DNA of 23,665 nucleotides, from IMG/VR virus record IMGVR_UViG_3300030419_006847, positions 1 to 23,665 of that record; one strand, given 5' to 3'. Shown one piece after another: positions 5,235 to 11,551 of the stretch (the stretch's first letter is position 1; each line of letters starts with the position of its first letter). Under the pieces are notes generated by a model. The model was not told the origin of the DNA and made no database searches. It was given only the letters and a program-made list of their open reading frames with translations. Position numbers and translations under genes: made by a program. The DNA comes from a virus.

Positions 5235-5382
5235 AGAAGATATTGAATTACTTTTAGAAGAAGCTAATGCTTATGGCTTAAGAATAGAAGTAGAACAATG
5301 GGCTATACAGCTTCTTAAAGAAGATCCCGATCTTTCACGATTAGAGGCATATGTACGAGCATATAACGAATGGATTAAATGA
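5191..5382 (+). CDS. small acidic hypothetical protein
   Basis: A 63-residue protein, mostly helical and acidic, with the core ANAYGLRIEVEQWAIQLLKEDPDLSRLEAYVRAYNEWIK. The frame also opens at 5092, but that start would lie 143 bases inside the preceding gene and code for an unrelated Lys-rich head. The ATG at 5191 reduces the overlap to 44 bases and begins just before the conserved-looking part. Its stop overlaps the next start in ATGA. I recognise no function. Confidence 0.65.
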   Translation: MKDQKEEEESLLNDEEDIELLLEEANAYGLRIEVEQWAIQLLKEDPDLSRLEAYVRAYNEWIK

Positions 5383-5555
5383 TTATGTCAGCAGAAGATA
5401 CACTATGGTTTATATACGAAGAAGTTGAAAAAAGAGGTCTTCGTAAAAAATTTGATAAGCAAGTAAAAAAGATGGATACTCAAGAAAAACACAAATATAA
5501 AACTGTTCCTGAAGTATGGGAGTATGCATTAAATAAAATTAAAAATGGTCGCTAG
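5379..5555 (+). CDS. small hypothetical protein, overlaps the tmRNA acceptor piece
   Basis: A 58-residue frame starting in the ATGA overlap with the preceding stop (an alternative ATG lies at 5385). The product is basic and helical, MIMSAEDTLWFIYEEVEK at the start and VPEVWEYALNKIKNGR at the end, with coding character like its neighbours. The last codons and the TAG stop lie inside the predicted 5' part of the tmRNA acceptor segment, so the two genes share sequence or the RNA is cut from the mRNA. Unknown family. Confidence 0.6.
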   Translation: MIMSAEDTLWFIYEEVEKRGLRKKFDKQVKKMDTQEKHKYKTVPEVWEYALNKIKNGR

Positions 5556-5609
5556 TACTTATATTAGCTGCTTGTTTGGACCCGGGTTCGATTCCCGGCA
5601 TCTCCACTA
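5546..5609 (+). ncRNA. ssrA: permuted tmRNA, acceptor (3') piece
   Basis: This holds the 3' half of a tRNA-like domain. The T-arm is perfect: stem CCGGG (5582-5586), loop TTCGATT, stem CCCGG (5594-5598). It is followed directly by acceptor strand CATCTCC (5599-5605), discriminator A5606 and CTA, so CCA is not encoded and would be made by processing and CCA addition. No matching 5' strand lies upstream, which rules out an ordinary tRNA. The partner, GGGGATG, lies downstream at 5627-5633 and pairs in all seven positions, including a G3-U70 wobble, the alanine identity element. Upstream parts GGTC (5547-5550), CTTATATT (5558-5565) and CTTGTT (5571-5576) pair with GACC, GGTATGAG and AGCAAG in the coding piece as a P2-like helix. 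The 5' end is approximate. Confidence 0.88.
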
Positions 5610-5626
5610 AAAAATATTTACGATAT

Positions 5627-5848
5627 GGGGATGACTGGTTTTGACAGCAAGTAAGGGTATGAGGAAGACCAACGCAGTAACCGGCAAACAGGTTAACACG
5701 GCGATAGCAAGTATATTTGCTTCCTTATCAGCTATTAGATCTCTTTCACAAGAATCAGTAGTTGCTAAAGAGCAAGTATTTGCAATGGCTGCCTAGATAG
5801 GCACCCACGCCACACGGTAAACAAGGATCATGTCGTAAAAATCCTAGG
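5627..5848 (+). ncRNA. ssrA: permuted tmRNA, coding (5') piece
   Basis: It begins GGGGATGACTGGTTTTGAC, which matches the conserved 5' end of tmRNA (GGGGxTGA...GGxTTCGAC). The acceptor strand 5627-5633 pairs with 5599-5605. AGCAAG (5646-5651), GGTATGAG (5656-5663) and GACC (5667-5670) form the long helix with the acceptor piece. A hairpin TAACC/GGTTA (5678-5682, 5691-5695), enclosed by CGC/GCG, and the pair GATAGC/GCTATT (5703-5708, 5731-5736) lie where pseudoknot PK1 is expected. The tag frame follows at 5764. No T-arm or acceptor strand occurs after it, so the gene is not the usual one-piece form. A 17-base spacer (5610-5626) separates the two pieces and would be removed. The mature 3' end is estimated from the terminator. 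Confidence 0.88.
5764..5796 (+). other. tmRNA tag reading frame, peptide AKEQVFAMAA
   Basis: Ten codons and a TAG stop. The frame is preceded by AGTAGTT, comparable to the AATAGTC that places the resume codon GCA in Escherichia coli tmRNA, and here the resume codon is GCT (Ala). The peptide ends FAMAA, in line with the hydrophobic-x-Ala-Ala end of degradation tags such as ALAA, and its length of ten equals that of the E. coli tag. The frame also extends upstream, but the TAGTT context favours this start. Confidence 0.8.
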
Positions 5849-5874
5849 AGCAGCTCGAAAGAGCTGCTTTTTTA
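5849..5874 (+). terminator. intrinsic terminator after the tmRNA
   Basis: AGCAGCTC (5849-5856) and GAGCTGCT (5861-5868) form a perfect 8-bp stem with a GAAA tetraloop, followed by a run of T. It ends the tmRNA transcript and separates it from the outer-membrane protein gene. Confidence 0.93.
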
Positions 5875-7618: not shown

Positions 7619-10600
7619 ATGAAAAAGTTATTATTATTGGCATTATTGCCATTGTTTCTATTTTCTCAAGATACTTGGGTGAATGTAGAATTTCAGTTTG
7701 ACCAATATGCTGATGAAGTATCATGGTCATTATCTAATGATTATGGTGTAATTGCCTCAGGTGGTGATTATGAATATCAACAACCAAATGCATTTCATGT
7801 AATTGACTCTTTAGAATCAGGAAACTATACATTTGAATTATTAGATTCTTATGGGGATGGTTTGTCATGGCCAAATGATGGTTATTGTTTAGTATCAAAT
7901 GCATGTCAAGATACTTTATTTTTTGCTCAAGGAGATTATGGTATAGGTTTAATTGAGTCTTTAACAATAGCACCTTGTGCCCCTCCTGAACCTGCAGTCA
8001 TTGATTGTATGGATGAAAATGCCATCAATTATAATCCGGATGCGGATGTAAACGATTCAATGTTATGTGAATACCCTCCTTGTGAATCAATCGATAATAT
8101 TTATGTAGAACAACAATGTGATGGAGGTTCTGCACTTCTTTACTATAATTGGGATGCTTCAAATAATCCTAATTGTAATATAATCCAAATAACTTATGGT
8201 AGTGAAAATACTAATTCATATACTTTTGATACAGATATAGATAATGGTATATGGGGGGTTTATGCTGGTAATGGTCAAATGCCTCCTAATTGGGAAGATA
8301 ATTTTTACGCTCAATTTCTTACAGCAGATAGTTTAGCATCAGATACTATATTCTTTACTCCATATCCATGTACACAAGGATGTACAAATGAAGATGCTCC
8401 TAACTATAATCCATGGGCTACAGTAGATGATGGTTCTTGTGGGGGTCAATCATGTGATGCAGGATATACTTCATTAAAAATAAACATAACGTTAGACAAT
8501 TGGCCTAGTGAAACTGGTTGGTCATTTGTTAGTGGTGATGGTTCTATGGAAGTTCCGGATGGAACATATACTTATCAAGATGTAGGACAAACTTACACAT
8601 ACGATGTATGCGCATTAGAATCAGGATTTGAATTTATTATATCAGATACTTATGGAGATGGTATGGCGGGTTCAACTACAGGTGGAACTTTAGATGGTGA
8701 AGTTCTTATAACGGGATGTAATGGAGATACGATTACCACATTATCATCTGGTACTTGGTTAAATGCAAGTCAAGAAAATGTAGGTGTTGGTTTTGGTAGT
8801 GTAGCTTATTCAGGATGGCAAGAAGTTCCTGTATGTGTAGAATCTGAAGATGTATTAGGATGTTTAGATAGTGACTATCAAGAATTCAATCCAGAAGCAA
8901 ATGTAGATGATGGTACATGTTTAAATGAACATATATTTGGTTGTACAAATGAAAACGCATTTAACTATAATCCAGATGCAACACAAATGGAAATATATCC
9001 TAATTGTGATTATGAATTATGGATTGGTGATGCAGGAGCAGACGGATGGGGTAATTCATTTTTAGGAGTTGTTCAAGGAGACAATATGTGGTCATTTACA
9101 ATGGGACCAGGACAATATGAACAAACATTTCCCCTATGGTTAGAAACAGATAAGCCAGTCACATTTTATTATTTTGCCGTTGGTGGTACACAAACCCCAC
9201 CAGAAGAAGTAGAATTTCAAACACTACATAATTCATTTAAATTAACTAATGCAAATGGAGTTGTATTATTATATGAAGGATGGAATCCTTTTGCAGACAA
9301 TGGTCAAGGTGCACTTCAACCATTCCAGCCTCCATTCTTTCAAACATATTCAGCAATGCCCTTTTGTGGTACACTTTGTATCCCAACAGTTTTAGGTTGT
9401 ACAGATAGTACAGCATTTAATTATAACGAAGAAGCTAATACAGATGATGGTAATTGTATTCCGGTTGTTGAAGGTTGTACAAATGATTTGGCATTTAATT
9501 ATGATGAAAACGCTAATACGGATGATGGTTCTTGTGTTTCAGTAATTGTTGGGTGTATGGATGAAGAGGCCTTTAACTATAATGAGGAGGCAAATGTTGA
9601 TGATCCTGATTCATGTATCCCCGTAATTGAGGGTTGTATGGATGATACTCAATTTAATTATAATCAAGCAGCCAATACAGATGATGGATCTTGTGAACCT
9701 TTTGTCTATGGTTGTACAGATCCAACAGCTACAAATTATAATGAGGAAGCTAATACAGATAATTTTAGTTGTATACCTTTTATCTATGGTTGTACTGATC
9801 CAGCTGCATTTAATTATAATGTTTTAGCCAATACAGATGACGGCACATGTATAGCAGTCGTATTAGGTTGTACAGATACTTTAGCTATAAACACAGACAC
9901 GCTTGCAAACACTAATTTTGGTTGTATTTATCCTGTTCTGGGTTGTACCGATCCAACAGCATTTAATTATGATGTTAATGCAAACACAGATGATGGTAGT
10001 TGTGAAGCTGTAGTTATTGGGTGTACAGACCCAACAGCACTAAATACAGATACATTAGCAAACACAAATTCAGGTTGTATATATCCTATTCTAGGTTGTA
10101 CTGATCCATCTGCTTTTAACTACAATGTGTTAGCAAATACGGATGATGGAAATTGTATTGAAGTTGTTTTAGGTTGTACAGATACTTTAGCTATTAATAC
10201 TGATACATTAGCTAATACAAACTTTGGTTGTATATATCCTATTTATGGATGCACAGATCCAGCCGCTTTTAATTATAATGTTTTAGCCAACACAGATGAC
10301 GGAACCTGTACCCCTGTAGTTCTTGGTTGTACAGATACATTAGCAATAAACACTGATACGTTAGCAAATACCAACTTCGGGTGTATTTATCCTATTTTAG
10401 GTTGCATAGATCCTATAATGTTTAATTATGACGTTAACGCAAATACAGATGACGGGTCTTGTGTCCCTTTTATTTATGGTTGTACAGACCCAACAATGTT
10501 TAATTACGATATTAATGCAAATACGGATAATGGTAATTGTATAGCTTATGTATATGGTTGTACAGATAGCACAGCATTTAATTATGACCCATTAGCTAAT

Positions 10601-11551
10601 ACAGATAATGGATCATGTATTGCAGTTATAGAGGGATGTACCAATCCTATTGCGTTAAATTACAATGTAGATGCAAATATAGATGATTTCAGCTGTATAT
10701 TACCAATTTATGGTTGTACTGATAGTACTGCACTAAACTATGATGAGAATGCTAATGTAGACAATGGTTCATGTATTGCAGTTGTTGAAGGTTGTACAGA
10801 CCCAACTGCTCTTAATTATAATGAATTAGCTAACGTAGATGACTTCTCTTGTATATTACCTATTTATGGTTGTACTGACCCAGAAGCATTCAATTATAAT
10901 GAGCTAGCAAATGTTGATAATGAATCTTGTATACCTGTAGTATATGGTTGTACAGACGAAACAGCATTTAATTATAATTCAGATGCAAATACAGAAGATT
11001 TTTCTTGTATAGAAATTATTTATGGATGTACAGATGAAAATGCATTTAATTATGACGAAACAGCCAACACAGATAATGGTTCTTGTATAGAAATAGTAGA
11101 AGGATGTACTGATATAAATGCATATAATTATAATTCAGAGGCCAATACAGATAATGGAGGATGTGAATATGATGCAGGATGTAGTGGAGGACCAGGAGAA
11201 CCATATTGGTTACCAAATGAATGTTTTGAATGGGTAATAGAAATAGATACAGAATGTTGTACAGGTAATTGGAATGATTATTGTGTTGAACTATATAATT
11301 ATTGTGATCTAGGTTGGCCTATTGATCTATCAGAATTTTCTTCTGAATTATTAATATATCCTAACCCAGTAATTGACATATTAAATTCAAACAAAGAAAT
11401 TGACATAAAAATATATGATATGGTAGGAAATTTAGTTATTTCTAAAGAAAAAACAACACAAATAGACATGACTAAATTATCAAGCGGTGTATATAACTTA
11501 AATATATACCATGACAGTAAAATAATAAACAACAGAATTATAAAACAATAA
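7619..11551 (+). CDS. giant secreted repeat protein with T9SS sorting domain
   Basis: A 1310-residue protein. It has a signal peptide (1-16), then two related beta domains containing SYGDG or TYGDG (about 20-120 and 280-410), another beta domain (about 460-590), and 23 tandem repeats of 25-26 residues (593-1186) of the form GCTDPTAFNYNxxANTDDGSC, with four looser copies earlier. Next comes a Cys-rich module (1187-1230, ECCTGNWNDYC) and a C-terminal domain (1242-1310) with IYPNPV, IKIYDMVGNLV, LSSGVYNL and an IIKQ end, the hallmark of type A T9SS sorting domains in Bacteroidota. The protein should cross the outer membrane by the host T9SS and be released or anchored at the surface. The Asn/Asp-rich repeats may bind calcium and probably form a rigid disulfide-stapled stalk. 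Adhesion or surface shielding is inferred. Confidence 0.88.
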   Translation: MKKLLLLALLPLFLFSQDTWVNVEFQFDQYADEVSWSLSNDYGVIASGGDYEYQQPNAFHVIDSLESGNYTFELLDSYGDGLSWPNDGYCLVSNACQDTLFFAQGDYGIGLIESLTIAPCAPPEPAVIDCMDENAINYNPDADVNDSMLCEYPPCESIDNIYVEQQCDGGSALLYYNWDASNNPNCNIIQITYGSENTNSYTFDTDIDNGIWGVYAGNGQMPPNWEDNFYAQFLTADSLASDTIFFTPYPCTQGCTNEDAPNYNPWATVDDGSCGGQSCDAGYTSLKINITLDNWPSETGWSFVSGDGSMEVPDGTYTYQDVGQTYTYDVCALESGFEFIISDTYGDGMAGSTTGGTLDGEVLITGCNGDTITTLSSGTWLNASQENVGVGFGSVAYSGWQEVPVCVESEDVLGCLDSDYQEFNPEANVDDGTCLNEHIFGCTNENAFNYNPDATQMEIYPNCDYELWIGDAGADGWGNSFLGVVQGDNMWSFTMGPGQYEQTFPLWLETDKPVTFYYFAVGGTQTPPEEVEFQTLHNSFKLTNANGVVLLYEGWNPFADNGQGALQPFQPPFFQTYSAMPFCGTLCIPTVLGCTDSTAFNYNEEANTDDGNCIPVVEGCTNDLAFNYDENANTDDGSCVSVIVGCMDEEAFNYNEEANVDDPDSCIPVIEGCMDDTQFNYNQAANTDDGSCEPFVYGCTDPTATNYNEEANTDNFSCIPFIYGCTDPAAFNYNVLANTDDGTCIAVVLGCTDTLAINTDTLANTNFGCIYPVLGCTDPTAFNYDVNANTDDGSCEAVVIGCTDPTALNTDTLANTNSGCIYPILGCTDPSAFNYNVLANTDDGNCIEVVLGCTDTLAINTDTLANTNFGCIYPIYGCTDPAAFNYNVLANTDDGTCTPVVLGCTDTLAINTDTLANTNFGCIYPILGCIDPIMFNYDVNANTDDGSCVPFIYGCTDPTMFNYDINANTDNGNCIAYVYGCTDSTAFNYDPLANTDNGSCIAVIEGCTNPIALNYNVDANIDDFSCILPIYGCTDSTALNYDENANVDNGSCIAVVEGCTDPTALNYNELANVDDFSCILPIYGCTDPEAFNYNELANVDNESCIPVVYGCTDETAFNYNSDANTEDFSCIEIIYGCTDENAFNYDETANTDNGSCIEIVEGCTDINAYNYNSEANTDNGGCEYDAGCSGGPGEPYWLPNECFEWVIEIDTECCTGNWNDYCVELYNYCDLGWPIDLSEFSSELLIYPNPVIDILNSNKEIDIKIYDMVGNLVISKEKTTQIDMTKLSSGVYNLNIYHDSKIINNRIIKQ
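9395..11176 (+). repeat. 23 tandem coding repeats of about 78 bp
   Basis: Each unit starts with codons for Gly-Cys-Thr-Asp and ends at the codon for the second Cys plus four or five linker residues. Units 7, 9, 11 and 13 are a divergent subtype (AINTDTLANTNFGC, 25 residues) alternating with the main type, so units 6-13 look like a two-unit block copied several times. Third-position differences between copies show that the array is not all recent. Confidence 0.9.

Follow-up and report, generated by a model that had tools for sequence, protein, structure and literature searches.

A circularly permuted, two-piece tmRNA gene occupies positions 5546–5873 (+ strand) of the window, by which we mean the whole stretch of 23,665 nucleotides analysed here, part of a 46-kb IMG/VR virus record. 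The Rfam model tmRNA_permuted (RF04321) matches it over its full length (model 1–213, window 5547–5796) at 81.7 bits (cut-off 47, E 1.6e-14), and ARAGORN returns a single tmRNA*, that is, the permuted type; both searches confirm what a sequence-only reading of the window had proposed. Permuted tmRNAs of phages are a known kind. What is new is a Bacteroidota-type branch of them, with a likely separate origin, tRNAs in the spacer and long tags. We consider it likely that the gene encodes a Bacteroidota-type permuted phage tmRNA that is processed into two pieces, rescues ribosomes together with host SmpB and was permuted separately from the forms already described.

The acceptor piece comes first (5546–5609, + strand; its 5′ end at 5546 is a putative, provisional boundary). 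It holds one strand of each of three joining helices, the T-arm and the 3′ acceptor strand, and it is recovered by RF04321, kept in 14 relatives and marked by covariation. The T-arm (5582–5598) consists of a 5-bp stem, CCGGG/CCCGG (5582–5586/5594–5598), two of whose five pairs covary, and the loop TTCGATT. The 3′ strand of the acceptor stem, CATCTCC (5599–5605), is invariant in the 14 relatives and pairs with 5627–5633, G3–U70 included, which is the marker pair of alanine RNAs. Read from the sequence, the T-stem and the 7-bp acceptor helix are both perfectly paired, and T-arm and acceptor in this geometry are expected 0.05 times per simulated window, against one observed. A discriminator A (5606) and a tail with CTA at the CCA-equivalent positions (5607–5609) are followed by a 17-base spacer (5610–5626), presumably cut out of the mature RNA, the length of which differs among relatives; the seven acceptor positions pair over it, as had been described. 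The coding piece opens with the GGGGATG 5′ acceptor strand, the D-loop region and the second strands of the joining helices, a segment (5627–5682) that runs to the proposed resume codon and is backed by RF04321 and by covariation. The tRNA-like domain (T-arm, G3–U70 acceptor stem and D-loop) is in this way assembled from two pieces, and the downstream piece holds a tag frame with its stop. An intrinsic terminator lies 3′ of the coding piece, at about 5846–5873 (+ strand; 5846–5871 in the comparison with the earlier description, which also placed it after the tag), and a T-arm of the expected form is absent within 700 bases downstream of the tag, in line with the same description. Upstream, a 58-aa open reading frame (5379–5555, + strand) runs with its last codons and TAG stop into the first bases of the acceptor piece, which thereby supplies the stop codon; the same KNGR ending with its stop can be read in two relatives (L285 and L096).

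Related viral contigs were gathered through neighbour genes and the 5′-end motif, and 14 distinct window-type genes were aligned with spacer and tag removed. Besides the acceptor stem, three helices connect the pieces (5546–5550/5667–5671, 5558–5565/5656–5663 and 5571–5574/5648–5651), and the alignment shows that they are real. The full structure of 29 pairs in five helices (the three joining helices, the T-stem and the acceptor) is paired in 99.5% of cells across the 14 sequences; slid versions of the same structure reach just 42.7–50.2%. Both sides have changed in 11 of the 29 pairs, giving 43 compensatory cells against a shuffled mean of 10.7, and compensatory changes occur in four of the five tested helices, including all three non-acceptor helices that join the pieces. 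The outer helix, for example, is GGUC/GACC in some relatives and GACC/GGUC, GAUC/GAUC or GAAUC/GAUUC in others. The acceptor stem is uninformative either way because it is invariant in the 14 relatives. Variation between relatives, which would have counted against the gene had it been uncompensated, is thus compensated, and a survey of relatives found the permuted order in many separate viral records. Among 50 whole viral records searched, 20 exceed the RF04321 cut-off, two of which are the phages Melnitz and HTVC008M.

The proposed tag frame, GKQVNTAIASIFASLSAIRSLSQESVVAKEQVFAMAA, spans 37 residues (5683–5793, + strand) and ends at TAG (5794–5796). It opens at GGC 5683, the putative resume codon, in the same context as in sister genes, and stays open through to the stop; tags of the sister genes have ten residues, GxQVExAMAA, likewise begin at a GGC codon and have the GxQV start and the AMAA end in common with the long frame. 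Seven genes, the window gene among them, have tags of exactly 37 residues. Pooled pN/pS of the long tag is 0.75, and by composition a frame of 29 codons would stay open with a chance of 12%, so what speaks for the long tag is its unvarying length and the ends common to these genes, not strong codon selection. ARAGORN reports a 10-aa tag, AKEQVFAMAA, which is probably a mere tail of the 37-aa tag: relatives have the GKQV start as well, and the short reading was therefore rejected as the complete tag. The window gene and that of a further relative, L392, have tags of 36–37 aa in which two unrelated inserts lie between the common ends GKQV and MAA. After the tag, a pseudoknot may form at 5814–5845 (+ strand) from the stems ACGG/TCGT (5814–5817/5833–5836) and AGGAT/ATCCT (5824–5828/5841–5845). 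The second stem covaries at all five pairs; the knot itself is put forward as a prediction because its first stem (ACGG/UCGU) is nearly invariant.

The idea that permuted tmRNAs are rare in phages did not hold. They have been published before: 53 of 133 phage tmRNA structures in the Melnitz paper are two-piece, 50 of these 53 being aquatic (PMC9004378), and 11,946 permuted sequences are listed overall (Nawrocki 2025, PMC11915505). In IMG/VR viral contigs we found at least 190 distinct candidates that have the permuted order and a D-loop, a few of which were already in our set of relatives. At least 130 of the candidates are of a proteobacterial type, with an encoded CCA, TTCGAC and tags such as ANDxxxALAA. 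Genes of the window type mostly lack CCA and have TTTGAC, traits that are associated among the matches listed (Fisher p 2.7e-15); some members of the window family (L293 and others) nonetheless encode CCA.

Rfam models of the known permuted lineages place the window gene apart from them. None of alpha_tmRNA (RF01849), beta_tmRNA (RF01850) and cyano_tmRNA (RF01851) finds a match in the window at its gathering threshold, and the best of them at E up to 1 is beta_tmRNA, with 61.2 bits against a cut-off of 84. The relatives likewise pass no lineage model. Published phage tmRNAs pass alpha_tmRNA (L281 and L282) or beta_tmRNA (L314 and L315). The standard tmRNA model (RF00023) is not the best clan model for the window, in which a downstream T-arm, as the standard order requires, was not found within 700 bases of the tag. 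The window gene shares gene order, T-arm, acceptor, D-loop and tag frame with RF04321 (PMC11915505) and exceeds its curated cut-off. The seeds of that model are alpha, beta and cyano sequences, whereas the window family is Bacteroidota-type, and the model scores the window gene at 81.7 bits compared with 103–118 bits for the proteobacterial-type phage genes L314, L315 and L317. Methylophilales phage Melnitz and Pelagibacter phage HTVC008M (PMC9004378) resemble the window in being marine myophages with a permuted tmRNA, but theirs passes alpha_tmRNA, encodes CCA and has AND/ANF...ALAA tags and an irregular T-loop. The genes of Stenotrophomonas (L315) and Alcaligenes (L314) phages also have the permuted order; unlike the window gene, they pass beta_tmRNA, encode CCA, have a longer spacer and TTCGAC and carry AND-containing tags.

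The probable host points in the same direction as the gene type. A Bacteroidota host had been suggested from the sequence, and this is supported as probable by a Por_Secre_tail (T9SS sorting) domain encoded in the window and by a window gp6 that is 48% identical to gp6 of Flavobacterium phage immuto. We infer that the window probably belongs to a T4-like phage infecting Flavobacteriales, marine Bacteroidota. The window gp6 is also 45% identical to gp6 of PP395634.1 (Microcystis phage Mel-JY01), the recorded host of which is a cyanobacterium. Positions 7619–11551 encode a secreted protein of 1310 aa that has a T9SS sorting domain and many repeats of the form GCTDPxAFNYNxxANTDDGSC.

We searched host genomes with RF04321, using 395 Bacteroidota and 396 Flavobacteriales genomes, partly shared (around 790). 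One match exceeded the cut-off, in a Flavobacteriales genome (G244). Its permuted tmRNA, with the tag GKVIQMNNAPVRLAA, adjoins tRNA-Met and tRNA-Ile in a prophage region (G244:C1:966100-998500; L312 and L313) with genes for RIIA, primase, helicase, DNA polymerase and integrase. The same genome retains a standard ssrA with the tag GEDNYALAA, so a Flavobacteriales prophage region bears the permuted form and its host the standard one. A search of 17 virus records, many of which are fragments, turned up no SmpB gene, and one is present in the G244 genome; the phages therefore presumably use host SmpB.

The features of the window gene recur in standard one-piece tmRNAs of Bacteroidia, which share with it GGGGATGACTGGTTTTGACAGCAAG, CTTGTTTGGAC, the usual lack of an encoded CCA and a glycine resume codon. 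They differ in their standard order, length (about 390 bases), far longer pre- and post-tag stretches and tags such as GEDNYALAA. In a standard gene from Aureibaculum (L262), the first 25 bases and CTTGTTTGGAC are identical to those of the window gene. The motif GGGGATGACNGGNTTTGACAG occurs in genomes mostly of Bacteroidota, and 102 of 120 stretches with it have the standard order and none the permuted order, the rest being cut off or unclear. A search of genome contigs for the permuted pattern, limited to spacers of 6–36 bases and the window D-loop, gave no matches, and none of the plasmids searched yielded an alpha-type gene.

A larger tree, with 109 rows and 65 columns of the tRNA-like domain, included no cyanobacterial permuted reference, and the alpha references and three long-branch rows were left out. 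Because the sampled Bacteroidota loci were the best-scoring ones and leaned to other classes, 20 lower-scoring genes were added. The window family falls with four other permuted phage genes in a branch with support of 100/98, in a run in which the bootstraps had not settled. This branch also contains 20 standard-order Bacteroidota and four standard-order phage tmRNAs, and the 30 sampled CCA-encoding permuted phage genes lie outside it (65 columns). An AU test weakly rejects a tree that unites all permuted genes in one clade (p 0.025 with 109 rows and 65 columns; 0.047 in an earlier 84-row tree), with p values near 0.05 and groups picked after first looks at the data. Identity comparisons of tRNA-like domains are biased by unequal group sizes and were not used as proof, and the domain could have converged under selection by host AlaRS, SmpB and CCA enzyme. 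The gene type nevertheless points to Bacteroidota, for which the tree gives support short of proof. The four other permuted genes of the branch (L294, L298, L299 and L300) come from other phage groups and have spacers of 59–138 bases; tags in three of them start with GKT or GNV. The phage tmRNAs L109, L120, L121 and L123, in standard order, have ARAGORN tags of 19–26 aa and the same Bacteroidota-type 5′ end.

The sequence-only reading had left two routes to such a gene, a separate permutation and the movement of a permuted gene between phyla. The tree and the lineage models favour the former over transfer of a proteobacterial gene, with modest statistical power. Marine phages might have brought in a permuted tmRNA of proteobacterial or cyanobacterial origin, its tRNA-like domain later adapting to Bacteroidota hosts. 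In favour of this, viral contigs commonly contain permuted tmRNAs of proteobacterial type, beta_tmRNA scores highest of the lineage models (61.2 bits) and Melnitz shows that such genes occur in phages whose hosts lie outside the gene's lineage (PMC9004378), but every window-type gene scores under the beta cut-off of 84, the tree groups these genes with Bacteroidota standard genes, and their tag, D-loop and CCA features differ from the proteobacterial type. We regard transfer as unlikely. Independent permutation in Bacteroidota phages, apart from permuted tmRNAs of the alpha, beta and cyano kinds, is the best reading, short of proof.

An intact tRNA-Ala(TGC) lies within the spacer in three relatives (L288, L291 and L507). 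That of L288 matches Flavobacteriales tRNAs at up to 96% identity, and cyanophage tRNA-Ala genes also reach 90%. A tRNA-Ala inside the spacer of a permuted tmRNA has been called a unique case, in a nominally archaeal MAG (PMC11915505). Compared by description alone, that permuted tmRNA (GCA-2688965) resembles those of L288, L291 and L507 in the intact spacer tRNA-Ala and differs from the window relatives in its source. With a tRNA-Ala between the two pieces, a single precursor would give the tRNA and both tmRNA pieces. We lean, by a narrow measure, towards the fuller claim that permutation arose independently in Bacteroidota phages, outside the three known lineages, in a form that tolerates a functional spacer tRNA-Ala and tags of about 37 aa.

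We hypothesize that the gene is transcribed as one precursor in which the acceptor piece precedes the tag-coding piece, and that host RNase P and tRNA 3′-end enzymes would remove the spacer from it. The acceptor piece would then receive CCA, and the acceptor stem and the three further helices would hold the pieces together. Host AlaRS could charge the molecule with alanine and host SmpB bring it to stalled ribosomes, where a tag ending in AMAA would be added and the ribosome freed. The phage may benefit as infection leaves many broken mRNAs. The molecule might instead be a decoy, its tRNA-like domain titrating SmpB or blocking host trans-translation while the tag frame goes unused; phage DS6A is reported to have a tag-less tmRNA, and such a molecule to inhibit host tmRNA (PMC4131195, PMC11915505). 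Here, however, the tag frame is kept, with 37 aa in seven genes and GxQVExAMAA in many others, and a stop and a conserved stem follow, which makes a decoy improbable. A standard-order tmRNA or tRNA remnant mistaken for a permuted gene, a reading invited by T-arm and acceptor sequences that are common and tRNA-Ala-like, is refuted by the compensatory pairing between the pieces and almost certainly wrong, as the T-arm was not found within 700 bases downstream and the same order recurs in many separate viral records.

If tmRNA was permuted anew in phages of hosts with the one-piece form, the split form evolves more easily than thought, and phages are one venue for it. A single cell would in that case contain the one-piece tmRNA of the host and the two-piece tmRNA of the phage, so that the two could be compared directly with SmpB held constant, and the spacer tRNA-Ala would offer a natural way to test how the pieces are excised.
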